NCBI RefSeq assembly: GCF_000251145.1
Contig: NZ_AIDW01000014.1
Location: 1 to 64,000 of the forward strand
DNA: 64,000 nucleotides
Reading direction: 5' to 3'
Origin: Sphingomonas sp. PAMC 26621
GTDB taxonomy: Bacteria > Pseudomonadota > Alphaproteobacteria > Sphingomonadales > Sphingomonadaceae
The notes beneath the pieces were generated by a model, which was given only the letters and a program-made list of their open reading frames with translations, made no database searches and was not told the origin of the DNA. A program made the position numbers and the translations under genes. Below are positions 47,312 to 60,843 of the stretch, one piece after another; the stretch's first letter is position 1; each line of letters begins with the position of its first letter.

Positions 47312-47776
47312 ATGACCCGGCCGCCGCTCCCCCCGTTCACCGACGAAACCGCAGCGCACAAGGCGCGGCTGGCGGAGGACGCGTGGAACAGCCGCGATCC
47401 GGCGCGCGTGGCGCTTGCCTATACGCCCGACAGCCAGTGGCGGAACCGCGCCGAATTCATCACGGGCCGGGAGCAGATCGCGGCGTTCCTCACGCGGAAA
47501 TGGGCGCGCGAGCTCGACTATCGCTTGATCAAGCAAGTCTGGGCGCACGCCGGCGACCGGATCGCGGTGCGCTTCGCTTATGAATATCACGACGACAGCG
47601 GGCAGTGGTTCCGGGCGTATGGCAACGAGAACTGGCAGTTCGACGACGGCGGCCTGATGATGATCCGGATTGCCAGCATCAACGAACATCCCATCGCTGC
47701 CGATGCGCGCGCCTTCTTCTGGCCGCTTGGTCGACGGCCGGACGATCACCCGGGGCTTACGGCGATGGGGTTCTGA
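47312..47776 (+). CDS. NTF2-like/SnoaL-like protein (DUF1348 family)
   Basis: A protein of 154 residues with a cone-shaped NTF2 fold expected from [26 protein letters not shown] and the beta-sheet half ([26 protein letters not shown]). The end [14 protein letters not shown] is typical of DUF1348. The function is unknown, possibly a stand-alone small-molecule binder. The ribosome site is weak. Confidence 0.85.
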
Positions 47777-48194: not shown

Positions 48195-48593
48195 CTACTG
48201 GGCGGGAATGTGGATCCCGCAGAGCTTGTTGCCGTCCGGGTCGCGGACATAGGCGAGGTGGACGGTTCCCATCGCCGACTCGCGCGGACCCGGACCATCC
48301 TCGATCGAGATGCCGCCGTTGGCGACGGCGGTCCTGTGGAACAGATCGACCTGCTCGGGGGAGTCACAGGAAAACGCCACGGTGCTGCCGTTCGCCACGG
48401 TTGCCGGTTCGTCGTCGATCGGCTGGGAAACGATGAAGTTCGTCCCGCCGGCATTGCGGTAGAACAAGCGGGTATGCCCGCTGCCGGCGATGTTCAGCGT
48501 CGCTTCGCCCGCGCCGAGCGCGCCGAGCAAAGCGTCGTAGAACCGCCTCGATCGCTCGATGTCGTTCGACCCCACCATGGTATGAAACAGCAC
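48195..48593 (-). CDS. VOC family (glyoxalase-like) protein
   Basis: A protein of 132 residues with two beta-alpha-beta-beta-beta modules: VGSNDIERSRRFYDALLG at the start and HLAYVRDPDGNKLCGIHI at the end. It is a glyoxalase/bleomycin-resistance/dioxygenase superfamily protein of unknown reaction. The start is GTG with GGAG at 7 nt. It is the second gene of a unit with the Old Yellow Enzyme gene (45-bp gap), which suggests handling of electrophilic enones or aldehydes. Confidence 0.88.
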   Translation of the reverse strand: MLFHTMVGSNDIERSRRFYDALLGALGAGEATLNIAGSGHTRLFYRNAGGTNFIVSQPIDDEPATVANGSTVAFSCDSPEQVDLFHRTAVANGGISIEDGPGPRESAMGTVHLAYVRDPDGNKLCGIHIPAQ

Positions 48594-48638: not shown

Positions 48639-49751
48639 TCACGGAAGCTCGATCTGCCCGTTCATGCCGGGCCAGTCCGAATAGCCGACGGCGCCGCCGC
48701 CATACCAATATTGCTTCGGTGCCTCGGCAAGCGGGGCGCCGGTCCGGAGCCGATCGACGAGATCGGGGTTGGCGAGGAAGGGGCGGCCGAAGCTGAACAG
48801 GTCGGCGTCGCCGTCCGCCAGCGTCTTCTCGGCAAGCTCGAGCGTGTACTGATTGTTGGCGATATAGGCGCCCGAGAAGCGCTTGCGCATTTCGTGGAAG
48901 TCGATTCCATCGGGCACGTCGCGCGTCTGCTGGGTCACGCCTTCGATATCGTGGATGTAGAGCAGCCCGATCCCGGACAGGGCGTCGACGAAGGTGTCGA
49001 ACGTGCGTCCGACCTGGCCGTCGAGCGGGGTCTTCCCGGGCTCGGTCGTCGCCGGCGAGATGCGGATGCCGACACGGTTCGCGCCCCAGACCCCGACCAC
49101 CGCACGGACCACGTCGAGCGGGAATCGCAGCCGGTTCTCGATCGAACCGCCATAATCGTCGGTGCGCTGGTTGGTGCTGTCGCGGATGAACTGCTCGAGC
49201 AGATAGTTGTTCGCGGCATGAACCTCGACGCCGTCGAACCCAGCCGCCTTCGCCTGTTCGGCGGCGTGGCGATAATCCTCGACGATGGCGGGAATCTCGT
49301 CGGTCTCCAGCGCGCGCGGGGTGACAAAATCCTTCATCCCGTCATTGGTGAAGGCCTGCCCCTCCGCCGCGATCGCGGACGGTGCCACGGGCAGCGCACC
49401 GCCGTGGAGGTCGGGGTGCGAGATACGGCCGGTATGCCACAACTGCAGGAAGATCTTGCCCCCACGCCGATGGACCGCCGCGACGATCGGCGTCCACGCC
49501 GCGACCTGCGCGTCCGACCAGATGCCGGGCGTCATCGCATAGCCGCGGGCCTGGGACGAGATGTTCGTCGCTTCGGTGATGATCAGGCCGGCATCGGCCC
49601 GCTGCGCATAATAATCCGCCGCGAAGGCCGGGGGGATCCCATCCTCGTTCGAGCGGCTGCGGGTGAGGGGGGCCATGACGATGCGGTTCTGCAACTGCAG
49701 GTCGCCGATCGTGACGGGTTGCAGGACGGGGCTGGCGGGCTGTTCGGACAT
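48639..49751 (-). CDS. Alkene reductase (Old Yellow Enzyme, NemA-like)
   Basis: A protein of 370 residues, an FMN-dependent NAD(P)H:enone reductase with an eight-stranded barrel. The substrate-binding pair His178 and Asn181 is in VEVHAANNYLLEQF, and the active-site Tyr is Tyr183. PLTRSRSNEDGIP and LWHTGRISHPDL are family signatures. It is cytosolic and reduces alpha,beta-unsaturated carbonyls and nitro compounds. It leads the unit with the VOC gene. Confidence 0.94.
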   Translation of the reverse strand: MSEQPASPVLQPVTIGDLQLQNRIVMAPLTRSRSNEDGIPPAFAADYYAQRADAGLIITEATNISSQARGYAMTPGIWSDAQVAAWTPIVAAVHRRGGKIFLQLWHTGRISHPDLHGGALPVAPSAIAAEGQAFTNDGMKDFVTPRALETDEIPAIVEDYRHAAEQAKAAGFDGVEVHAANNYLLEQFIRDSTNQRTDDYGGSIENRLRFPLDVVRAVVGVWGANRVGIRISPATTEPGKTPLDGQVGRTFDTFVDALSGIGLLYIHDIEGVTQQTRDVPDGIDFHEMRKRFSGAYIANNQYTLELAEKTLADGDADLFSFGRPFLANPDLVDRLRTGAPLAEAPKQYWYGGGAVGYSDWPGMNGQIELP

Positions 49752-50297: not shown

Positions 50298-51101
50298 TCA
50301 TCCGGCGATGGTCGCGACCGAGCCGGAGTCGACCCGGATCCCGGCGCCGTTGATGAAGCTCGCCCGTTCCGAACACAGGAAGGCGACCGCGGCGGCCACT
50401 TCCTCCGCCCGGCCACGGCGCTTGAGCACCATCCCGGGTCGTTCCTCGTCGAGGAAGCTCGCGATCGCATCGTCGAAGCTCTCGCCGCGTTCGTCCGCAC
50501 GCTTGCGCATCATCGTATCGGTCATCGGGGTCGCGATGAACGCCGGGGAGACGGTGTTGACCAGCACATTGTCCCCGCCATAGGCCTTGGACAACCCCTT
50601 CGCGAGGCTGAGGATGCCGGCCTTGGACGCACAATAAGCGAGTTCGTCGATATAGGGCTGGACCCCGTCCTCCGACGCGAACAGCACGATCCGGCCCCAG
50701 CCGCCCGCGCGCATCGCCGGGATCGCCTCGCGACACATGCGGACCGCGCCCATCAGGTTGATGTCGAGCGTCTGCTGCCAGCCGGCGTCGTCGACCTCAA
50801 GGAAATCCCCGGTCGCGCCGGTGACCCCGGCGGCATTGACGTAGATGTCGGGGTTGCCGAGTTTCCCGCGAACCTCCGCCCAGATCGCGCTGACATCGTC
50901 GATCCTGGTCACGTCGCCGGTGACCGCGATGACGTCCCCGAGCGGCGACAGCTCGGCAACCGCCTCGTCGAGCGTCCCGCCGGCTTGATCGGTGATCGCG
51001 ACGCGGACGCCCGCCTCGAGCAGCAGCTTTGCCGTCTCCTTGCCCATGCCCGAATCCGCGCCGCTGATCAGCGCGATACGGTCCTTGATGCCGAGATCCA
51101 T
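50298..51101 (-). CDS. SDR family oxidoreductase, last gene of a redox operon
   Basis: A protein of 267 residues with classical short-chain dehydrogenase features. SGADSGMG at 13-20 is the cofactor loop, VNAAG at about 88-92, and the catalytic set is Ser143, Tyr156 and Lys160 (YCASK). The acidic residue after beta-2 (ITDQ) suggests NAD(H). AAGGAG precedes the ATG. It starts 10 bp after the GMC oxidoreductase gene, so it belongs to that operon, and it may act on the alcohol or ketone partner of the GMC reaction. Confidence 0.9.
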   Translation of the reverse strand: MDLGIKDRIALISGADSGMGKETAKLLLEAGVRVAITDQAGGTLDEAVAELSPLGDVIAVTGDVTRIDDVSAIWAEVRGKLGNPDIYVNAAGVTGATGDFLEVDDAGWQQTLDINLMGAVRMCREAIPAMRAGGWGRIVLFASEDGVQPYIDELAYCASKAGILSLAKGLSKAYGGDNVLVNTVSPAFIATPMTDTMMRKRADERGESFDDAIASFLDEERPGMVLKRRGRAEEVAAAVAFLCSERASFINGAGIRVDSGSVATIAG

Positions 51102-51111
51102 GGTGAACTCC

Positions 51112-52650
51112 TTACTGTTTGGATGCCAGAAAACGGTCGGCGGTGCGAAGTGACAGCGCCATGATCGTGAGCGCCGGGTTGGCGGCCAGCGCACTCGGGA
51201 AGATCGAATTGTCGCAGATCAGCAGGTTGGGGATGTCGAAGCTGCGACCGTCCGGGTCGACCACCGCCGAAGCGCCATCCCGCCCCATGCGGCACGTGCC
51301 GATGGTATGCGCCGAGCGGCTGACGGAGAAAATGTCGCGCGCGCCCGCCGCCGCCCATATGTCGGTCAGCGTGCGGCGCGCGTGCCGATCGATCGCCCGT
51401 TCGTTATCGTGATAGCTGTAGTCGATCCGCGCCTTGCGATGCCCGAAGGCGTCGGTCTCGTCGGCGAGCGTCAGCCGATTGTCCTCGTGCGGCAGGCATT
51501 CGCCGTTGATCCCGATCCCGGCCATGCTGTTGTAACCGCGCAGCAGCGTCTGGAGACGCTCGCCCCACATGCCCGCGCCGCGCGCGAGCCCGGTCGCGAG
51601 GTTGACCGGGAGCACGCCGAGGCTCTGGATCAGATAGCCGCTCGCACAGCCGATGTCGCCGGGGCGCATCATGTCCTCGCTGATCAGCGAGGAGGGATAG
51701 CCGCGGTTCATCCGCATGTCGGCGTCGAACCGGCCCCAGACCTGAGTCGCGACATGCGCCATGAAATTGCGCCCCACCTGACCGCTCGAATTGGCGATCC
51801 CGAGGTTGAGCAGCAGGCGCGGCGTCTCGACCCCGCCCGCGCACAGGAAGACGGCGGAACAGCGCTGGCGATGCTCCCGGCCGTCCTGCCAATAGACGAC
51901 CGCGCTGATCCTGCCGCTTCGATCGAATTCGAACGAAAGAACGCGGGACTCCGCGCGGATCTCGGCACCGTGCGCGACCGCGGCGGGCAGGTACGTCGTG
52001 TCCATGCTGGTCTTGGCGGCGTTGCGGCAGCCCTGATGGCAGGCACCGCAATTGACGCAGGCCTGCCGCTGCCCCCAGTGCGGCTGGTCACGATCACGCG
52101 ACACCAGCGCGGCCGGCGCATCGGTCGCGCGAATGCCGAGGGCGGCACAGCCGCGCGCCATCGCATCGGCGGAGGCGTTGCGCGCTACCGGCGGGTAGGC
52201 ATAGCGCCGCGTCGCATCCCACGGATAGTCGGCCGGCCCGGATACGCCGGTAAACTGCTCGACCTCCGCAAGGTAGGCGGTGAGCGCGTCATGGTCGATC
52301 GGCCAGTCGGCACCTTCGCCGGTCAGCGTCTGCAACTGCAGGTCGCGCGGATCGGGGCGCGGGCAGAACGCGCCCCAGTGGAGCGTCGACCCGCCGACGC
52401 CCATGCCCGAATTGTTCGAACCGAACGCGGTGGGGGTCGATCCGCCACTGAGACGTTCCTCCATCCAGTAGATATCAGCAGCCACTTCGTCCGCGACGTG
52501 ATCGTCCGGACGGAAGGCACGGCCGGCCTCGAGCGCGACCACCGACACACCCGCCTGCGCGAGCCGGGCCGTCAGCGGCGCGCCGCCCGCGCCGGTGCCG
52601 ATCACGACCGCGTCGACGACATCGTTGGCGGCATGCCGTGGCGCGTTCAA
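51112..52650 (-). CDS. GMC family oxidoreductase with Fe-S-type Cys motif (gluconate/FAD-glucose dehydrogenase alpha-like)
   Basis: A protein of 512 residues. The FAD-binding motif VVIGTGAGGAPLTARLA spans about 15-31. The C-terminal GMC segments carry His in AHTIGTCRMG and Asn in AANPALTIMAL. A Cys cluster CVNCGACHQGC (Cys198, 201, 204, 208) follows the CxxCxxCxxxC rule and could hold a 3Fe-4S or 4Fe-4S centre, as in FAD-glucose dehydrogenase alpha subunits. No signal peptide is visible. The start is TTG overlapping the stop of the upstream fusion gene (TTGA), so the two proteins are coupled. An ATG 9 codons upstream is an alternative. Confidence 0.88.
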   Translation of the reverse strand: MNAPRHAANDVVDAVVIGTGAGGAPLTARLAQAGVSVVALEAGRAFRPDDHVADEVAADIYWMEERLSGGSTPTAFGSNNSGMGVGGSTLHWGAFCPRPDPRDLQLQTLTGEGADWPIDHDALTAYLAEVEQFTGVSGPADYPWDATRRYAYPPVARNASADAMARGCAALGIRATDAPAALVSRDRDQPHWGQRQACVNCGACHQGCRNAAKTSMDTTYLPAAVAHGAEIRAESRVLSFEFDRSGRISAVVYWQDGREHRQRCSAVFLCAGGVETPRLLLNLGIANSSGQVGRNFMAHVATQVWGRFDADMRMNRGYPSSLISEDMMRPGDIGCASGYLIQSLGVLPVNLATGLARGAGMWGERLQTLLRGYNSMAGIGINGECLPHEDNRLTLADETDAFGHRKARIDYSYHDNERAIDRHARRTLTDIWAAAGARDIFSVSRSAHTIGTCRMGRDGASAVVDPDGRSFDIPNLLICDNSIFPSALAANPALTIMALSLRTADRFLASKQ

Positions 52651-54002
52651 GACGATTGCTCCACGGGGCGCTGCCACGTTTCGAGGTCATCCGCGGCAGT
52701 GCGGGTGTACCCCTGCTTGCGCGGACCATCGCCGCCGTTCGCGAAGCCGTCATAGCCGATCGCCGCCATCGTCGCGGGGAGGGACATCCAGACTCGCGCG
52801 GTTTCGGCACGTACGTCCTCGAACCACAGCCGCATCTGTTCGGCGGTCAGTTTCGAGTCGTCTTCCGCGATGCCGGTCTCGCCCGCGTCGATGCACTCGA
52901 GCAGGGCCGCCTGCGCCGTGCCCGGCGCGGTCGCGAACCCCCCTTCGAACGCGGCGAGCGTCGCGAGCCCGCGCGTCCATGCCGCGCGATCAGCGGGCAA
53001 GGCCGCAAAGCGCCAGCCGTCGCCCGGACCCTCGGCGATCCCGGCGAGAATCCGGTCCGCCAGCGCGCGGTCCGCGCCGCAATCGGGGAGGATCTGCCCG
53101 ACCAGCGCCGCCATCGTCGCGACGTGGTCGTCCGTCCACGACGACAGGTCGGAGGAGGGGGGATGGAGCCGGTCCACCATCGCGGCGCGCGTCCGGTGGC
53201 TGACGCGATCGGAGTCGAGCAACCGCGCGAACCGGGCCGGGAGTGCCGCCGGTTCGACCATCGCGGCGTGACCGTCGATCAGGCCGGCAAGCACCTGCGG
53301 CTGTTCGTAAGGAATGAGATGCGCCGCGCCTTCGACCACCCGCAGCTCGGCGGTGGCATAATGCGGCAGGTTGAGCCGTCGCTGCGCCTCCGCGCCGAGA
53401 TCGCCGTCCTCCGCCCCCGCGAGGATCAGCGCGGGGATCGGGACCTGCCCTGCAATGGCGCGCCAGTCCTCGCGGCTGCCGCGCTCGAGCCAGCCGAGCC
53501 ACGCTTCCCGGCTCGATCGCTGCACGTCGGCGATCGCCTGGTCCCGGGCTTCGCCCGCCAGCGGGGTTGCGGTATTGGCATCGACGAACGTCACGGCATC
53601 GTCACGCGTCGGCGACCGATCGGCGAACCACCCGATCATCTCGGCGCGGCGATCCTCGTCCATCGGTTCGGGCGCGGGCGGTGAGGCCGCGACCAGCACG
53701 ACGCCGAGGACGCCCGACAGGCCGATCTCCCCGGACGCAGCGCGTGCCGCCACCAGGGTGACGATCTTGCCGCCCATGCTATGCCCGACCAGCACGCAGG
53801 CGGTGAGGTGACGCGACCGGATTTCCGCCGCGAGCCAATCCGCCATTGCGGCGACATCGGCATATCCCGCGTCCGCCGCATCGCCGAACCCGGGCAGGTC
53901 CAGCGCCACGCAGGCACGGTGCGGCAAGTGCTCGACGACACGATCCCATTCTTTCGCGCTCGCGCCCAGCGCGTGAAGAAATACCAACGTCGGTCCGGTC
54001 AT
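52647..54002 (-). CDS. Alpha/beta hydrolase fused to gluconate 2-dehydrogenase subunit 3 domain
   Basis: A protein of 451 residues with two domains. Residues 1-255 form an alpha/beta hydrolase: LVFLHALGASAKEW, nucleophile Ser75 in VGHSMGGK, acid near Asp199, base His228 in GAAHLIPYE. Residues about 290-440 match the gluconate 2-dehydrogenase subunit 3 family (SWTDDHVATMAALVGQILP, then GYDGFANGGDGPRKQGY). In known complexes this small subunit accompanies a GMC flavoprotein and often brings a Tat leader; none is present here. The gene overlaps the GMC gene by 4 bp. GAGG at 5 nt supports the ATG at 54002. Such a fusion is unusual in my experience. Confidence 0.86.
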   Translation of the reverse strand: MTGPTLVFLHALGASAKEWDRVVEHLPHRACVALDLPGFGDAADAGYADVAAMADWLAAEIRSRHLTACVLVGHSMGGKIVTLVAARAASGEIGLSGVLGVVLVAASPPAPEPMDEDRRAEMIGWFADRSPTRDDAVTFVDANTATPLAGEARDQAIADVQRSSREAWLGWLERGSREDWRAIAGQVPIPALILAGAEDGDLGAEAQRRLNLPHYATAELRVVEGAAHLIPYEQPQVLAGLIDGHAAMVEPAALPARFARLLDSDRVSHRTRAAMVDRLHPPSSDLSSWTDDHVATMAALVGQILPDCGADRALADRILAGIAEGPGDGWRFAALPADRAAWTRGLATLAAFEGGFATAPGTAQAALLECIDAGETGIAEDDSKLTAEQMRLWFEDVRAETARVWMSLPATMAAIGYDGFANGGDGPRKQGYTRTAADDLETWQRPVEQSS

Positions 54003-54117
54003 GCAGCCTCGCAAATTCCCCTCTGCGTGACGTTGCAGCGACGGGTACGTTCCGGTGAAACGCCCGCGGAACCGAATAATTCCGCCGCCGCCCCGCGCGC
54101 CCGGTGCGCGCGCCTGG

Positions 54118-54552
54118 TCAGACCGTGACTTCGCCCTCGTCCGTTCCATCCCAATAATGCACCCGCACCGCGCGCACGTGGATCATCACGAGACCGGGGG
54201 TGTCGATGCCTTGCGGAAACCAGCGGTCGAGATCGGACGTCCAGCGCTCGGCAAACGCCTGCTTGTCGCGGACGATCTGGCCCGCGCCCTCGACCGCGAC
54301 GAACAGCGGCGGTTTGCCGAGCAGCCCGGCGCTGCCCTGGAACGACAAGGCGACGTGCGGATCGCTCGAAATGTCGGAGACGGTGCGCGCATCATCGTAG
54401 CTGAAGTAGAAGCTGTCTCCCTGCCATTCGACTTCGCCGTTGTTGCTCATCGGGCGGGTCGCGAGCTGGCCGCCTTCGGTCCGGGTCGTGAGCATCGCGA
54501 AGTCGATCTTGCCCATCGCCTTGGCGAGATCGTGCAGGGTCATCTCGGTCAT
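54118..54552 (-). CDS. Pyridoxamine 5'-phosphate oxidase family protein (general stress FMN-binding type)
   Basis: A protein of 144 residues with a split-barrel flavin-binding fold. IDFAMLTTRTEGGQLATRPM and GDSFYFSYDDART are typical of the general stress protein 26 group. It is a small cytosolic FMN or F420-type binding protein of uncertain reaction. AGGAAAG precedes the ATG. It is the first gene on the minus strand of the redox cluster, 115 bp before the fusion gene. Confidence 0.88.
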   Translation of the reverse strand: MTEMTLHDLAKAMGKIDFAMLTTRTEGGQLATRPMSNNGEVEWQGDSFYFSYDDARTVSDISSDPHVALSFQGSAGLLGKPPLFVAVEGAGQIVRDKQAFAERWTSDLDRWFPQGIDTPGLVMIHVRAVRVHYWDGTDEGEVTV

Positions 54553-54709: not shown

Positions 54710-55717
54710 ATGTCCGGTACACCGACTATTTCGACCCTGGCCGAACTCGCCGAACTGGCGGGAGTCTCGGTTGCGACGGTCTCCCGCTCGCTCGCGGGAA
54801 ACGCGGTCATCGCGAAGGCGACGCGCGACCGGATCGTCTCGCTCGCGACCGAACACGGCTTCAAGGTCAACCAGGCCGCGCGCAATCTCCGGCTCAAGCG
54901 GACCGGCGCGATCGGTGTCGTGCTGCCGCTCGGGCACGAGACCGAGCAACATTTGTCCGATCCGTTCTTCATGAGCCTGCTGGGACCGCTCGCCGATGCG
55001 ATCGCGGATCGCGGGCATGACTTGCTGCTGTCGCGGATCATCCCGAAGGACGATCGCTGGCTCGACGCGATCGTCGATGCCGGGCGAGTCGATGGCGTCA
55101 TCGTGGTCGGCCAGTCGAACCAGATCGATGCGATCGAACGCGTCGCCGAACGCTATCGCCGGATCGTCGTGTGGGGCGCGATCATGCCCGACAAGACGCA
55201 GGTGACGGTCGGCAGCGATAATGTCGCGGGCGGGCGGATCGCGGCGGAACATCTGCTGGCGCAGGGGCGGCGGCGGCTGGCGTTCTTCGGCAATACCGAG
55301 GTGCCGGAATTTGCCGCGCGCTATGCCGGCTTCCAGCAGGCGCTCGCCGCATCGGGGAGCGGGCAGGCGACGTTGCTGCCGGTGCATCTGACGAGCGAGG
55401 CGTCCTATGCCGCGATCGAGGCGTATCTTGCGGGGCATTCGTCGCCCGACGGGATCGTCGCGGCGTCCGACGTGATCGCGATGAGCGCGCTGCGGGCGCT
55501 GTCCGCGCATGGCAAGCGCGTCCCGCAGGACGTGAGCGTCGTCGGCTATGACGACGTGGTGATCGCGATGCACACCAACCCGCCGCTGACGACGGTCCGG
55601 CAGGATGTCGCGCGCGGGGCCGCGGTGATGGTCGACCTGCTGTTCCGCCGGATGGAGGGCGAGGACGTCCGATCGGTCGAGATGGCGCCCGAGCTGATCC
55701 TGCGCGCGTCCGCCTGA
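54710..55717 (+). CDS. LacI-family repressor of the sucrose locus
   Basis: A protein of 335 residues. The HTH at about 9-28 reads TLAELAELAGVSVATVSRSL, with the hinge NQAARNLRLKRT; the periplasmic-binding-fold effector domain follows (GVVLPLGHE, DGIVAASDVIAM). It probably controls the adjacent transporter and receptor through the operators at 57109 and 57133. Its role resembles SuxR of the Xanthomonas sux locus, which is inference. A GTG one codon earlier is an alternative start. The stop abuts the stop of the convergent transporter gene. Confidence 0.92.
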   Translation: MSGTPTISTLAELAELAGVSVATVSRSLAGNAVIAKATRDRIVSLATEHGFKVNQAARNLRLKRTGAIGVVLPLGHETEQHLSDPFFMSLLGPLADAIADRGHDLLLSRIIPKDDRWLDAIVDAGRVDGVIVVGQSNQIDAIERVAERYRRIVVWGAIMPDKTQVTVGSDNVAGGRIAAEHLLAQGRRRLAFFGNTEVPEFAARYAGFQQALAASGSGQATLLPVHLTSEASYAAIEAYLAGHSSPDGIVAASDVIAMSALRALSAHGKRVPQDVSVVGYDDVVIAMHTNPPLTTVRQDVARGAAVMVDLLFRRMEGEDVRSVEMAPELILRASA

Positions 55718-57052
55718 TCAGGCCACGGCGAGCTGCGGCTGTGGCTGCGGCGCGCGGACGAACCAGGTCGCCACCGCCGCGGCCAGCATCATCCCCCCGC
55801 CGAGCAGCAGCACGTGGCGCGGATCGCCGCCCAGCAGCGGACGATAGGCGAGCCATACGAACAAAATCTCGACCATCATCGGGATGACGATGAACATGTT
55901 GAAGATGCCCATGTAGACGCCGGTCCGCTCGGGCGGGATCGCGTTGGCGAGCATCAGATACGGGTTGCCCATCAGGCTGCCCCAGCCGATCCCGATCCCG
56001 ACCATCGCGACCACCAGCAGCGGGATCGACCCGGTCGAGGCGATCGTCAGCATCGCCGCGCCCGACAGCACCATCGCGACCGCATGGATCGGCCGTGCGC
56101 CGAACCGCCGCGCGAAGGGCACCATCGCGAAGGCCGAGACGAAGGCGACGAGATTGTAGAACGCCCCGAGCTGGCCGTTGAGCAGCCCCGCGTCGCGAAA
56201 CCCGACGCTCCCGGGATCGCTGGTGTGGAACACGCCGCGGGCGAGCGCGAGCACGACATATTGCCAGTAGCAGAACATGCCGAACCACTGGAACAGCATC
56301 GCCACCGCAAGCTGGCGCATCGTCGGGGGCATGTCGCGGATTGCGTCGACAAGGCCGGTGACGGTCGAGCGCAACGACAGCGGATCGGCGGTGATCGCGG
56401 CGTCCTCCTCCGGCGTCAGCGGCAGCTCGGGGACGCGCCAGACCGACCACAGGATCGTCGTGATCGACAGCACCGCGCCGATCAGGAAGCTGATCCGCGT
56501 GATTTCGGGGATGCCGTTGCTGTCGAGCGTGTCCTTGTTGAGGCCCCACCAGACCAGCAGCGAGGGGGCAAGATAGGAAAGCGTCTGCGCGAGGCCGGTG
56601 AACGCGCTCTGCGTGAGGAAACCGAGCGGCCGCTGCGCCGCATCCAGCCGGTCGCTGACATAGGCGCGGTACGGCTCCATCGTGACGTTGTTCGCGGCGT
56701 CGAGCACCCACAACAGGCTCGCCGCCATCCACAGCGTCCGGCTGTACGGCATCGCGAACAGGCACAGGCTGCACAGGATCGCGCCGACGAGGAAATAGGG
56801 GGTGCGGCGCCCGAGGCGGGTCCGCGTCCGGTCGCTCATCGATCCAATCAATGGCTGGATGACCAGTCCGGTCATCGGACCGGCGAGCCACAGCAGCGGC
56901 ATGCTGCCCTCGTCCGCGCCGAGATAGCTGTAGATCGGCCCCATGTTGCTTTGCTGCAGCCCGAAGCTGAACTGCAGGCCGAGGAACCCGAGGTTCATCT
57001 GCAGGATCTGCGCGAACGGCAGATGGATCTTGCCGACCGATACGCTGGTCAC
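55718..57052 (-). CDS. MFS sugar (sucrose-type) symporter
   Basis: A protein of 444 residues with twelve predicted transmembrane segments of the glycoside/sucrose proton symporter kind. GSMSDRTRTRLGRRTPYFLVG after helix 2 is the MFS loop of that family (given here as two parts: SMSDRTRTRLG and RRTPYFLVG). It moves sucrose or a glucoside from periplasm to cytosol, comparable to SuxC. The GTG start follows GGGAGAGA. It is divergent from the TonB receptor with two LacI operators between, and its stop abuts that of the LacI gene. Confidence 0.9.
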   Translation of the reverse strand: MTSVSVGKIHLPFAQILQMNLGFLGLQFSFGLQQSNMGPIYSYLGADEGSMPLLWLAGPMTGLVIQPLIGSMSDRTRTRLGRRTPYFLVGAILCSLCLFAMPYSRTLWMAASLLWVLDAANNVTMEPYRAYVSDRLDAAQRPLGFLTQSAFTGLAQTLSYLAPSLLVWWGLNKDTLDSNGIPEITRISFLIGAVLSITTILWSVWRVPELPLTPEEDAAITADPLSLRSTVTGLVDAIRDMPPTMRQLAVAMLFQWFGMFCYWQYVVLALARGVFHTSDPGSVGFRDAGLLNGQLGAFYNLVAFVSAFAMVPFARRFGARPIHAVAMVLSGAAMLTIASTGSIPLLVVAMVGIGIGWGSLMGNPYLMLANAIPPERTGVYMGIFNMFIVIPMMVEILFVWLAYRPLLGGDPRHVLLLGGGMMLAAAVATWFVRAPQPQPQLAVA

Positions 57053-57108
57053 GTCTCTCTCCCGAAACGGCGGACTGTTGCCACCCTGCAACGGCGCATA
57101 AGCGATCC

Positions 57109-57122
57109 CGCAAACGATTGCA
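57109..57122. promoter_or_regulatory. LacI-type operator, imperfect
   Basis: CGCAAACGATTGCA differs at two positions from the perfect site 24 bp away (TGCAAACGTTTGCA). It lies 57 bp before the transporter start and within the divergent control region. The central CG and AAACG half-sites match LacI/GalR operators. Confidence 0.65.
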
Positions 57123-57132
57123 ATTTTCGTCT

Positions 57133-57146
57133 TGCAAACGTTTGCA
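57133..57146. promoter_or_regulatory. LacI-type operator, perfect palindrome
   Basis: TGCAAACGTTTGCA is a 14-bp perfect palindrome with the central CpG typical of LacI/GalR operators. It lies 60 bp upstream of the TonB receptor start and 81 bp upstream of the transporter start, so one bound repressor could silence both promoters. Confidence 0.8.
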
Positions 57147-57205
57147 CGAATCGATTAGGACCGGATCGAGCCGATAAACGGCCATGTTGTTTCCAGGAGA
57201 GTGAT

Positions 57206-59665
57206 ATGTTGAAAGGGCGCACCCTTTTTCTCGCGACGACCGCGCTGCTGGCCGCCACGCCGGTTTTCGCACAGCAGACCCCGGCCCCGGCGGCTGCGCC
57301 GGACCCCGCCGCCGAGCCACCGGCGAGTGACGACATCATCGTCACCGCGGTCGCGCGCGGGCAGAACCGCCTCGACAGTTCGGTTTCGGTAAGCTCGCTC
57401 AACAGCGATGCGATCGTCAACGCCGCCCCGCGCTCGACCGCCGAGCTGTTCCGCAGCCTGCCGGGCATCCGGTCCGAATCCTCGGGCGGCGAGGGCAATG
57501 CCAATATCGCGGTGCGCGGCCTGCCGGTCGCCTCGGGTGGCGCCAAGTTCCTGCAGCTCCAGGAAGACGGGCTGCCGATCCTAGAATATGGCGACATCGC
57601 CTTCGCCAATGCCGACATCTTCCTGCGCGCCGACTTCAATGTCGCGCGGATCGAGGCGGTGCGCGGCGGTTCCGCCTCGACCTTCGCCTCCAACTCGCCG
57701 GGTGGCGTAATCAACCTGATCTCCAAGACGGGCGAGCAGGAGGGCGGCTCGATCCAGGGCACCGTCGGGCTCGACTACGGCGAATATCGCCTCGACGCCG
57801 ATTACGGCGGCAAGCTCAGCGATACGCTGCGCTTCAACGTCGGCGGGTTCTACCGCGTCGGCGAGGGGCCGCGGCGTGCGGGCTATGACGGCAACAAGGG
57901 CGGACAGATCCGCGGCAACATCACCAAGACCTTCGACCGGGGCTTCTTCCGCCTCAACGTCAAATATCTCGACGATCGCGCGATCGCCTATCTGCCGAGC
58001 CCGGTCCGCGTGACCGGAAGCGACAGCAACCCGACCTACCGCTCGCTGCCCGGGCTCAGCGCCAATACCGACACGATCCACAGCATCTATTTCACGCGCG
58101 CGGTCACCCTCGACGGGGCGAACAACCGCGAGGTCGACGACATTCGCGACGGGATGCACCCGGTCGTCAAGGCGATTGGCTTCGAAACCGAATTCGAGGT
58201 CGCCGACGGGTGGAAGGTCAGCGACAAGTTCCGCTATTCGGACATTTCGGGGCGCTTCATCTCGCCCTTCCCGGCAAGTGTCGACACCGCGCAGAACCTT
58301 GCCAATGCGATCGGTGGCCCGGGGGCGATCCTGAGCTATGCCAACGGCCCGAATGCCGGGCAGGCCTATGCCAACCCGACGACGTCGAACGCGATCGGTG
58401 TCGTGCTGTTCAATACGAAGCTGAACAGCCTCAACAACATCACCAACGATCTGCGAGTCAACCGGCGGTTCAATGCCGGGGACGGGACGGTCGACTTCTC
58501 GGCCGGCTTCTACAAGTCGCGCCAGACGATCAACGTCGACTGGACGTGGTCGTCCTACCTGCTCGACGCGAAGGGCGACAATGCCGCGCTGCTCAACGTC
58601 CGGACGGCCACCGGCCTGTCGCGGACCGACAACGGGCTGGTCGCGTATGGCGCGTCCTTCTTCGGCAATTGCTGCCGTCGCAGCTACAACGTCGACTACG
58701 ACACCAACGCGCCGTTCGCGTCGATCGGCTACACTGGCAGCGGCTTCAACGTCGATGCCAGCGTGCGCTATGACACGGGGAGCGCCCGCGGCTTCGTCAT
58801 CGGCGATGGCCCGGTGACGAGCTTCGACGTCGACGGCAACGGGACGATCTCCTATCCCGAGACGCAGACCACCATCCTGCCGCTCAACAGCCCGCAGCCG
58901 GTCAACTACAACTTCCACTATGCGTCCTATTCGTTCGGCGCGAACTATCGGCTGGCGAGCGACCTCTCGGTCTTCGCGCGCTACAGCCGCGGCGGTCGCA
59001 CCAATGCCGATCGCTTCCTGTTCAACGCAAACAATGTCAGCGCGACCTCGGGACAACTCCAGCCCGGCGCGCGCCCGGTCGATTTCGTCCGCCAGGCCGA
59101 GGCGGGGGTGAAGTACAGCCATGCCGGGCTCAACCTGTATGGCACGGGCTTCTGGGCGAAGACCGCCGAGCAGAATTTCGAAGCGACGAGCCAGCGGTTC
59201 TTCGACCGGACCTACCGCGCTTACGGCGTCGAGCTCGAGGGCAATTACCGGATCGACGGGTTCAGCCTCGCCGCCAGCGGGACCTATACCAAGGCCAAGA
59301 TCATCAGCGACAACGTCACCCCCGCGGTGATCGGCAACCGCCCGCGTCGCCAGGCCGAGTTCGTCTACAAGGTGACGCCGCAATATACGACCGGGCTGTT
59401 CACGCTCGGCGCGAGCGCGATCGGCACGACGTCGAGCTACACGCAGGACACCAACCAGCTGAAGCTGCCCGGTTTCACGCAGGTCAACGCGTTCCTGAGC
59501 GTGCGTCCGGTGGAGCGGGTGCAGGTCTCGATCAACGCGAACAACCTGTTCAACACCAAGGGCTTCACCGAAGCGGAGGAGGCATCGATCCCCACCAACG
59601 GCATCGTGCGCGCGCGCTCGATCAACGGCCGCACCATCTCGGCCGCGCTCAAGCTCGACTTCTGA
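57206..59665 (+). CDS. TonB-dependent receptor for a sugar (SuxA-like)
   Basis: A protein of 819 residues. The signal peptide ends near residue 22 (TPVFA-QQ). A Pro/Ala linker, a TonB-box-like DDIIVTAVAR, a plug (about 60-165: STAELFRSLPGIRSES, IEAVRGGSASTFASNSPGG) and a large barrel follow. The last residue is Phe (LKLDF), the standard outer-membrane signal. AGGAGAG precedes the ATG. Location beside a LacI operator, a sugar symporter and a GH68 enzyme implies active uptake of sucrose or fructo-oligosaccharide across the outer membrane. Confidence 0.92.
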   Translation: MLKGRTLFLATTALLAATPVFAQQTPAPAAAPDPAAEPPASDDIIVTAVARGQNRLDSSVSVSSLNSDAIVNAAPRSTAELFRSLPGIRSESSGGEGNANIAVRGLPVASGGAKFLQLQEDGLPILEYGDIAFANADIFLRADFNVARIEAVRGGSASTFASNSPGGVINLISKTGEQEGGSIQGTVGLDYGEYRLDADYGGKLSDTLRFNVGGFYRVGEGPRRAGYDGNKGGQIRGNITKTFDRGFFRLNVKYLDDRAIAYLPSPVRVTGSDSNPTYRSLPGLSANTDTIHSIYFTRAVTLDGANNREVDDIRDGMHPVVKAIGFETEFEVADGWKVSDKFRYSDISGRFISPFPASVDTAQNLANAIGGPGAILSYANGPNAGQAYANPTTSNAIGVVLFNTKLNSLNNITNDLRVNRRFNAGDGTVDFSAGFYKSRQTINVDWTWSSYLLDAKGDNAALLNVRTATGLSRTDNGLVAYGASFFGNCCRRSYNVDYDTNAPFASIGYTGSGFNVDASVRYDTGSARGFVIGDGPVTSFDVDGNGTISYPETQTTILPLNSPQPVNYNFHYASYSFGANYRLASDLSVFARYSRGGRTNADRFLFNANNVSATSGQLQPGARPVDFVRQAEAGVKYSHAGLNLYGTGFWAKTAEQNFEATSQRFFDRTYRAYGVELEGNYRIDGFSLAASGTYTKAKIISDNVTPAVIGNRPRRQAEFVYKVTPQYTTGLFTLGASAIGTTSSYTQDTNQLKLPGFTQVNAFLSVRPVERVQVSINANNLFNTKGFTEAEEASIPTNGIVRARSINGRTISAALKLDF

Positions 59666-59672
59666 ACCGACC

Positions 59673-59698
59673 GCCCCGGGCGCCATCCCGCCCGGGGC
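59673..59698 (+). terminator. Intercistronic hairpin
   Basis: Perfect 10-bp arms GCCCCGGGCG and CGCCCGGGGC with a CCATCC loop are followed by ATCTTG. It lies 8 bp after the receptor stop and 33 bp before the GH68 gene. With a poor U-tract it may reduce, rather than stop, transcription into the enzyme gene, setting the receptor:enzyme ratio. Confidence 0.55.
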
Positions 59699-59730
59699 AT
59701 CTTGACGCCTGATCCAGTGAGTAGCCCGCT

Positions 59731-60843
59731 ATGACAAGTCTCTGGTCCCGCGACGCGGTCGCCGCGATCGCGGATCGGCCGATCCCCGAGGTGCCGCGGA
59801 TCGCCGCGCACAGCATGCCGCCGGTCCTCCCGGGGCAGGACCTGTGGGATTACTGGCCGGTCCAGGAACGCGACGGGCGGACCGCGACGATTGCCGGCGG
59901 CATGCTCCAGATGCTGCTGTCCGCCCCGGTCATGCCCGACCCCGAATCCCGCCACGCGCTTGCCCGCATCCGGTTGATGCACGAGACGCCGAACGGCTGG
60001 TGCGACCTTGGCACCATGTTGCCCGACGGGCTTGCCCCGGGGAGCCGTGAATGGTCGGGATCCGCCATCGTGACACCCGGGCATGACCGCGTGACGCTCT
60101 ACTTCACCGCCGCCGGGCATCGCGGCGAGGCCAAGCCGAGCTTCGACCAGCGCCTGTTCGAAACCACCGCCACGCTGTCGGTCGAGGCAGGCGTGCCCCG
60201 GCTGACGGACTGGACGACCCCCATCGAGTCGGTCGTCGCCGACGGCGAGATCTACACGCGCGACATGGCCGGGGGCGGCGCGATCGGCACGATCAAGGCG
60301 TTTCGCGATCCGGCGTGGTTCCGCGATCCGGCGGATGGGGCCGAATATCTCGTCTTCGCTGCCTCGCTTGCGCAATCGACGTCGCCCTATAACGGCGCGG
60401 TCGGGCTGGCGCGGCGCGTGCTCGGGGGCTGGGCGCTGCAGTCGCCGCTGATCACGGCGGACGGGGTCAATAACGAGCTCGAGCGCCCGCATATCGTCCA
60501 CCACGACGGGCGCTATTATTGCTTCTGGGCGACCCAGCGGAAGGTCTTCGCGCCGGAGGGACCGTCGGGACCGACCGGCCTGTACGGAATGGTCGCCGAC
60601 CGGATCGAAGGGCCATGGACGCCGCTTAACGGGAGCGGTCTCGTCTGCGGCAACCCGCCCGCCGCGCCGCTTCAGGCGTATAGCTGGCTGGTGCTCGCCG
60701 ACCTCAGCGTGTTGAGCTTCGTCGACCGGCCCGGGCTCGCCGCGAACCCGGTGGATGCCGCCGAAGCGCGCGCGCATTTTGGCGGCACGCCCGCGACGCC
60801 GTTCCGGATCGTGCTGAACGGCGACCGCGCGGCGGTGGCCTGA
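59731..60843 (+). CDS. GH68 family sucrose-active enzyme (levansucrase/beta-fructofuranosidase-like)
   Basis: A protein of 370 residues with the five-bladed propeller motifs of GH68. The nucleophile is Asp40 in QDLWDYWPVQ, the transition-state stabiliser Asp193 in FRDPAWF, and the acid/base Glu251 in NELERPHI. It cleaves sucrose and either releases fructose or transfers it to make fructan. No signal peptide is present, and a sugar symporter is encoded alongside, so intracellular sucrose hydrolysis is the simplest reading. Leaderless export as in some Zymomonas enzymes is an alternative. The ribosome site is weak, and a hairpin lies between it and the receptor gene. Confidence 0.9.
   Translation: MTSLWSRDAVAAIADRPIPEVPRIAAHSMPPVLPGQDLWDYWPVQERDGRTATIAGGMLQMLLSAPVMPDPESRHALARIRLMHETPNGWCDLGTMLPDGLAPGSREWSGSAIVTPGHDRVTLYFTAAGHRGEAKPSFDQRLFETTATLSVEAGVPRLTDWTTPIESVVADGEIYTRDMAGGGAIGTIKAFRDPAWFRDPADGAEYLVFAASLAQSTSPYNGAVGLARRVLGGWALQSPLITADGVNNELERPHIVHHDGRYYCFWATQRKVFAPEGPSGPTGLYGMVADRIEGPWTPLNGSGLVCGNPPAAPLQAYSWLVLADLSVLSFVDRPGLAANPVDAAEARAHFGGTPATPFRIVLNGDRAAVA

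Follow-up and report, generated by a model that had tools for sequence, protein, structure and literature searches.

RESULTS AND DISCUSSION

One gene in the 64,000-nucleotide window analyzed here (Sphingomonas sp. PAMC 26621, contig NZ_AIDW01000014.1, positions 1 to 64,000) encodes an alpha/beta hydrolase fused to the small subunit of a GMC oxidoreductase, and the GMC flavoprotein itself is encoded by the overlapping next gene. As judged by sequence comparison, the fusion is a real, old, and conserved variant of the GMC–small subunit pair. It is not described in any literature title or abstract opening found in a search that mostly did not extend to subscription journals. The best explanation of the whole, given a probability of about 0.4, is a tethered complex in the cytosol in which an oxidation would be followed by the opening of a lactone. 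The roles best known for GMC small subunits are to help export and to protect the cluster; here, the small subunit would tether a second enzyme in the cytosol and provide a natural test of the small-subunit role where export plays no part. The features of the locus are listed in Table 1.

Domain Structure of the Fusion Protein

The reading frame runs without interruption for 451 codons on the minus strand, from the ATG at 54002 to the TGA at 52647. The Pfam domain Abhydrolase_6 covers residues 6–239 of the product with an E-value of 7.6e-22 and is matched in 26 of the 26 members of the fusion alignment (A1). The nucleophile, acid, and base given in Table 1 are invariant in these rows, as is Asp201, and the residue preceding the nucleophilic serine is a tyrosine in locus L009. 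The Ser, Asp, and His residues are retained in all 39 fused rows and in 20 of 22 rows for hydrolases that stand alone. A script gave 38 of 39 and 16 of 22 for these counts, and the remaining misses were settled by eye. The two lone rows without the full triad represent a single truncated locus of S. aurantiaca that is counted twice. A complete Ser75/His228 hydrolase fused to a GMC small subunit had been described in a first-pass annotation made from the window sequence, and this description is borne out by the open frame, the Pfam matches, the invariant residues, and 55 loci of the genus.

The same annotation placed the small-subunit domain at approximately residues 290–440. The Gluconate_2-dh3 domain is present, but the alignment with stand-alone small subunits yields a complete subunit that starts near residue 250. 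The match of the window protein to PF13618 has an E-value of 2e-4 and a score of 22.1 bits, slightly below the cut-off of 23.4 bits. Within alignment A1, 16 of the 26 members are matched at E ≤ 0.01, with a best E-value of 2.2e-7. The weak match was accepted because orthologous fusions score higher and pass the cut-off (27.2 bits for Comamonadaceae bacterium OTU4NAUVB1 and 49.2 bits for Methylobacterium bullatum). The low score of the window protein looks like divergence.

The AlphaFold model of the whole fusion has a mean predicted local distance difference test (pLDDT) value of 87.6 and a predicted template modeling score (pTM) of 0.84, with an uncertain tail from about residue 429. In a Foldseek search with the whole fusion, the neighbors of the hydrolase include D14/KAI2, BioH, and the P. 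fluorescens esterase (an arylesterase). Apart from one designed cage, the 50 rows of this search are all entries for alpha/beta hydrolases, and none matches the C-terminal domain. All NCBIfam scores of the hydrolase lie far under the cut-offs: 80.4 versus 390 bits for the PcaD-type enol-lactonase (the best), 64.1 versus 208.55 bits for MenH, and 44.8 versus 206.95 bits for BioH. PcaD/PcaDC, MenH, and BioH are therefore similar in fold and are among the best-scoring NCBIfam models, but no substrate is implied by scores of this size.

When the C-terminal domain was searched alone (mean pLDDT of the model, 82.5), nothing was found at E ≤ 0.001 with Foldseek or above a Z of 2.7 with VIA-align. Profiles A2 and A4 of this domain gave no PDB relative beyond chance-level rows. 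The gamma subunit structure of the B. cepacia flavin adenine dinucleotide (FAD)-dependent glucose dehydrogenase (BcGDH) is not among the returned fold matches, and its absence from that list is not an exclusion. The C-terminal domain is very probably the partner subunit of the GMC.

Distribution of the Fusion and Its GMC Partner

A scan of species genomes yielded 29 loci, of which 25 are full-length fusions (24 from Sphingomonas and one labeled Pseudoroseomonas); locus L029 was excluded as a weak match. Within the genus Sphingomonas, 55 full-length fusions are found in 53 of 295 genomes, and because of this conservation the fusion is regarded as neither a chance event nor a consensus error. 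A GMC lies within 60 nucleotides of the fusion at 53 of the 55 loci, and a frame-broken GMC is directly behind the fusion at the other two. These two loci, in S. metalli (L022/L117) and genome G547 (L118), have the GMC split over two frames near the N-terminus and the fusion intact; the split is either a sequencing error or decay. In a class sample of 385 genomes, both the fusion and this GMC are restricted to three, one of them the source of the window. The class-sample fusions reach two further alphaproteobacterial families, and the fusion is also found in Methylobacterium bullatum and the Comamonadaceae bacterium OTU4NAUVB1. Loci L022 and L117 are from the same genome, as are L027 and L101, and the counts from the separate scans are not additive.

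The joint presence of the domains was examined with a hydrolase tree of 59 rows, 57 of them different, from which L123 was omitted as the same locus as L025. A GMC accompanies 38 of the 38 fused rows and none of the 21 lone rows within the stretch read, and the small-subunit domain and the GMC are jointly present or jointly absent in the 59 rows. Parsimony requires 7 switches between the fused and lone labels, and well-supported branches force at least 5. Lone hydrolases of the genus (at least 295 bits, without the C-terminal domain) account for 22 rows in 22 genomes, 20 of which have no fusion. None of these 20 genomes has a GMC at E ≤ 1e-140. In the GMC tree the fusion partners form one group with a support of 100/100 (11 versus 13 rows; the root is not known). 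This grouping fits a single fusion event, and the fusion apparently arose once, long ago.

Two loci of these trees deserve separate mention. The fusion on the Pseudoroseomonas deserti contig NZ_MLCO01000090.1 (L017) groups inside Sphingomonas in both the GMC and the hydrolase trees, which suggests either horizontal transfer or contamination. At the Sphingomonas aurantiaca locus (L025, 6001–6876; L123), the hydrolase ends near residue 220, and the small-subunit domain, GMC, and SDR (short-chain dehydrogenase/reductase) are absent behind it. The promoter box described below is still present at this truncated locus.

Relatives Encoded by Separate Genes

In a family sample of 298 genomes, the C-terminal domain is matched in 14 genomes at 17 places, of which 2 are fused to the hydrolase and 15 stand alone. 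A GMC adjoins every one of these 15 stand-alone homologues. Within the genus, genome G553 pairs an above-threshold GMC (708 bits) with a stand-alone subunit.

Three Deinococcus plasmids were compared with the fusion locus. The D. psychrotolerans plasmid encodes a small subunit, a GMC, and an alpha/beta hydrolase in that order, with overlapping ends. In the plasmids of D. gobiensis and D. actinosclerus, MocA-type and GH1-like genes lie between the GMC and the hydrolase. The same three protein types are close together in all three operons; unlike the fusion, they are separate genes, and the GMC has the three-cysteine motif only. The small subunits score 15.7–22.1 bits against PF13618, below the cut-off, and 46–61 bits against the profile of the C-terminal domain. 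No functional study of these operons was met in the literature search, which was not aimed at Deinococcus. Because Deinococcus keeps the hydrolase, GMC, and small subunit together, a link between hydrolase and GMC is argued for, and these operons point independently to the interaction predicted for the fusion. The link proposed in the first-pass annotation is thus supported by neighboring genes in Deinococcus and by the joint presence seen in the hydrolase tree.

The hydrolases of the separate clusters score 110–154 bits. Paralogues within the genus score 119–142 bits, with pairwise identities that overlap as well, and the bit scores alone are not proof of orthology. The hydrolases of Deinococcus and of loci L091 and L093 stand apart in the hydrolase tree, as do the paralogues. 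Small subunit–GMC pairs of Pseudomonadota and Deinococcota (L090–L094, L152, and L154–L157) lie in clusters with genes for an SDR, a GH1-like protein, a thiamine-diphosphate enzyme, an enolase-like protein, MocA, or a flavin mononucleotide (FMN) dehydrogenase. A search for glucoside 3-dehydrogenase kin gave no result.

Cysteine Motif of the GMC

The structures nearest to the window GMC in a phmmer search are BcGDH (6a2u_B) and then fructose dehydrogenase. The large subunit of the latter (PDB 7w2j and others) belongs to the second nearest solved GMC group and is without a hydrolase. Fructose dehydrogenase is a membrane complex with a cytochrome. His448 and Asn491 of the window GMC are invariant in the 25 rows of alignment A3, and their catalytic roles are assigned by analogy. 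The motif CxxCxxCxxxC is found in the GMCs adjoining fusions at 39 of 39 loci (L022 and L117 being one genome). This motif is that of a ferredoxin-type 4Fe-4S site, and weak 4Fe-4S profile matches are obtained with the window GMC, some of them centered on the cysteine stretch. In GMCs with a separate small subunit, Cx5Cx3C is found in 23 of 23 distinct loci and the four-cysteine motif in none, with an arginine at the position of the second cysteine.

The 3Fe-4S ligands of BcGDH are reported as Cys212, Cys218, and Cys222, a spacing of Cx5Cx3C (PMC6719666). Cys198, Cys204, and Cys208 of the window GMC share this spacing; phmmer sets Cys198 against Cys213 of BcGDH through a one-residue gap, and the match to the ligands is therefore one of spacing. 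A GGD loop is inserted near the C-terminus of the fused small-subunit domains and not in the separate ones compared, with G916 as the exception. Since the C-terminal loop of the BcGDH gamma subunit is reported to pack next to the cluster (PMC6719666), the fourth cysteine and the GGD loop may, by analogy, meet at one interface. The three- and four-cysteine clusters would represent a natural variant among relatives of glucose-sensor enzymes.

BcGDH (PDB 6a2u/8grj; PMC6719666) resembles the window system in combining a GMC with a small partner subunit, in its Cx5Cx3C spacing, and in the retained His and Asn positions. It differs in being periplasmic, with a small subunit exported as a Tat hitchhiker and a tri-haem cytochrome c (PMC6719666). 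The window system is leaderless, has no cytochrome found in its cluster, and carries the fourth cysteine in the GMC and the hydrolase on the small subunit. Ten window proteins encoded between 45417 and 60843 were scanned, excluding the genes at 47312–47776 and 48195–48593, and no cytochrome was detected.

Cellular Location

The first strand of the hydrolase begins at residue 5 of the AlphaFold model and the Rossmann stretch of the GMC at about residue 12, so there is no room for a leader in either protein. No leader is seen in the fusion or the GMC, in agreement with the cytosolic location proposed earlier. The further proposal, that the catalytic domain had replaced a Tat leader, is not supported by the stand-alone relatives. 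None of 16 stand-alone small subunits, read by eye from their assumed starts, has a twin-arginine leader that includes a hydrophobic stretch; the L044 subunit has SRRR near its start and no hydrophobic segment. Since these relatives are leaderless too, a leader was probably not replaced by the hydrolase, and the lineage seems to have been leaderless already before the fusion. The subunit 3 of membrane gluconate 2-dehydrogenase belongs to the same PF13618 family, in which a twin-arginine signal is reported to be widely conserved (PMC10924467); that signal is not seen here.

Proposed Mechanism and Alternatives

In the preferred explanation, the fusion would serve as a subunit with two functions in a flavo-iron-sulphur dehydrogenase of the cytosol. 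The C-terminal half would hold or stabilize the GMC flavoprotein, and the N-terminal half, predicted to be an active serine hydrolase, would thereby be tethered to the flavoenzyme. The alcohol oxidized by the GMC, and likewise by the SDR, would be cyclic or similar to a sugar, and the simplest product would be a lactone. Electrons would pass from the FAD to the putative cysteine-bound iron–sulphur cluster and then to a further acceptor. The hydrolase would open the lactone, perhaps received through a channel, and would pull the oxidation forward. A bolder proposal is rather doubtful: that the GMC complex is of a novel kind, pairing a dehydrogenase with a hydrolase in the cytosol and using the small subunit as carrier of the second enzyme, and that the fourth cysteine (perhaps for 4Fe-4S and not 3Fe-4S), the GGD loop, and the tethered hydrolase co-evolved as one machine.

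Oxidation followed by lactone opening fits at least as well as the reverse order. It is favored because the kin of the GMC are sugar dehydrogenases and because the hydrolase persists beside the SDR at loci that have no GMC. An ortholog of the SDR is near 14 of the 21 lone-hydrolase rows in the stretch read and directly behind the hydrolase in 10 of them. Opening by the hydrolase of a lactone that comes from either the GMC or the SDR would explain the survival of the hydrolase without the GMC. A sugar dehydrogenase tethered to its lactonase has a precedent in G6PD::6PGL (PMC3148214). The families are unrelated, and the dehydrogenase itself is fused in that protein, as reported, whereas the small subunit is fused here (PMC3148214).

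Several observations weigh against this explanation. The sugar-like substrate is a surmise, and the PcaD-type score is, as a sequence match, generic for the alpha/beta hydrolase fold. Sequence and fold searches with the C-terminal domain retrieved no solved relative, and its binding to the GMC is deduced from gene order and joint presence. Coupling to the GMC is not obligatory for the hydrolase, which occurs alone in 20 of 295 genomes of the genus. For 7 lone rows out of 21, among them Roseomonas and the truncated L025, the stretch read gave no SDR ortholog. No hydrolase match was found in the stretches read near the small subunit–GMC pairs L090, L094, L127, L128, and L155–L157, and no electron acceptor was seen adjoining the operon.

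The first-pass annotation proposed the reverse order, in which the hydrolase would cleave an ester or lactone and the freed alcohol would be oxidized by the GMC in the cytosol. The coupling evidence (Deinococcus gene order and joint presence) also serves this order, and BioH and the P. fluorescens arylesterase are among the fold neighbors. It is nevertheless considered unlikely, given that the GMC is closest, among solved structures, to sugar dehydrogenases and that no ester substrate is suggested by the neighbors. The oxidation by BcGDH of the first hydroxyl of glucose (PMC6719666) also counts against hydrolysis as the first step.

A low probability is likewise given to a real complex without metabolic coupling of the hydrolase. 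The fusion would then set only stoichiometry or location, and the hydrolase would serve another reaction, for example together with the SDR as part of a detoxification operon induced by stress. The persistence of the hydrolase without the GMC, directly before the SDR in 10 of 21 lone rows, is consistent with such a role, as are the ECF-type box (extracytoplasmic function sigma factor type), the PNPOx-like and Old Yellow Enzyme genes in the window, and the Dps gene in S. insulae. However, the hydrolase, the GMC, and the small subunit stay neighbors in Deinococcus, where the annotation of the stretches inspected includes no SDR, and the final base of the box departs from the CGTT published for EcfG (PMC7083833, PMC6599016).

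A catalytically idle hydrolase domain, with no role beyond folding or docking, is quite improbable. D14 and KAI2, alpha/beta hydrolase-fold proteins that serve as receptors, are among the top fold matches, but the Ser, Asp, and His residues are kept in nearly all fused and lone rows, as given above. An assembly or consensus error can be dismissed: the separate-gene homologues that the first-pass annotation named together with such an error do exist, in Deinococcus, but the same fusion recurs in several genera and families whose genomes were sequenced independently.

Operon Organization

The stop of the fusion overlaps the GMC start as had been read earlier in the window (TTGA), and an ATGA or GTGA overlap is present in the 24 orthologous loci printed. 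A fixed ratio of fusion to GMC is plausible from this overlap. Of the 25 fused loci L001–L024 and L026, 10 have the SDR gene immediately after the GMC. The best PDB matches of the SDR are sorbose reductases, with other SDRs close behind.

Table 1. Coordinates of the features of the fusion locus in the window
Feature	Position	Strand	Basis
Fusion gene, 451 residues, alpha/beta hydrolase and Gluconate_2-dh3 small subunit	52647..54002	-	Open frame, Pfam, conservation in the genus
Alpha/beta hydrolase domain, residues 1–249	53256..54002	-	Pfam Abhydrolase_6, Foldseek
Complete small-subunit domain, residues 250–451	52650..53255	-	End-to-end alignment with stand-alone small subunits, including Deinococcus
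Pfam PF13618 Gluconate_2-dh3 match, residues 292–411	52770..53129	-	Pfam
Ser75 codon, nucleophile in GHSMGG	53778..53780	-	Invariant in 26/26 rows; role by family
Asp199 codon, likely catalytic acid	53406..53408	-	Invariant in 26/26 rows; role inferred
His228 codon, catalytic base	53319..53321	-	Invariant in 26/26 rows; role by family
GGAAC-N16-CGTC box, candidate ECF-sigma-type promoter, first base 51 nucleotides before ATG	54029..54053	-	Conservation of upstream regions
GAGG, likely ribosome-binding site of the fusion gene	54007..54010	-	Sequence, 4 nucleotides before ATG
TTGA, TTG taken as GMC start, overlapping the TGA stop of the fusion	52647..52650	-	Sequence
GMC oxidoreductase, 512 residues	51112..52650	-	Pfam GMC_oxred_N and _C
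GMC residues 198–208, CxxCxxCxxxC, candidate iron–sulphur site	52027..52059	-	Four Cys invariant in A3, 25 rows
SDR dehydrogenase, probable third operon gene	50298..51101	-	Pfam adh_short_C2; 10 nucleotides after GMC stop

Candidate Promoter and Neighboring Genes

The pattern GGAAC-N16/17-CGT[T/C] is present in 23 of 29 regions upstream of the loci and missing from 6. It starts 51–55 nucleotides before the start codon, and all 23 copies end in CGTC. Over 200 rounds of dinucleotide shuffling, 0.24 of the 29 upstream regions matched on average and never more than 2; the 29 regions are related sequences, and their kinship is not corrected by the shuffles. A TG inside the spacer is fixed in 22 of the 22 N16-spaced copies. 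Genome-wide, the pattern has 112 matches compared with 148 for the reversed control and is not significant by itself, so that the weight of the box lies only in its conservation at a fixed place. One of these matches is antisense inside a window gene that resembles, by eye, a TonB receptor. The box is absent from most lone-hydrolase loci, and the deeper clades have, by eye, GGAAC with other downstream bases.

The EcfG consensus is reported as GGAAC-N16-CGTT in Sphingopyxis (PMC7083833) and as GGAAC-N17-20-GTT in S. melonis (PMC6599016). The box of the window differs from the published CGTT in its last base and looks like an ECF-sigma promoter. Term counts in the main texts of these two papers gave no match for GMC or gluconate in either, and none for hydrolase in PMC6599016.

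A PNPOx-like gene (PF16242) is located upstream of the operon at 54118–54552 and an Old Yellow Enzyme gene downstream at 48639–49751. A Dps gene adjoins the operon of S. insulae (L151, 6176–6775). These three neighbors hint at a stress setting. The segment from 54710 to 60843 of the window contains Pfam matches for a LacI regulator, an MFS transporter, a TonB receptor, and a GH68 levansucrase/invertase, and it is probably a cluster for sucrose or levan utilization. A GH15 gene is found near the fusion in the Comamonadaceae plasmid (L148) and near the lone hydrolase in a Roseomonas mucosa plasmid (L149).

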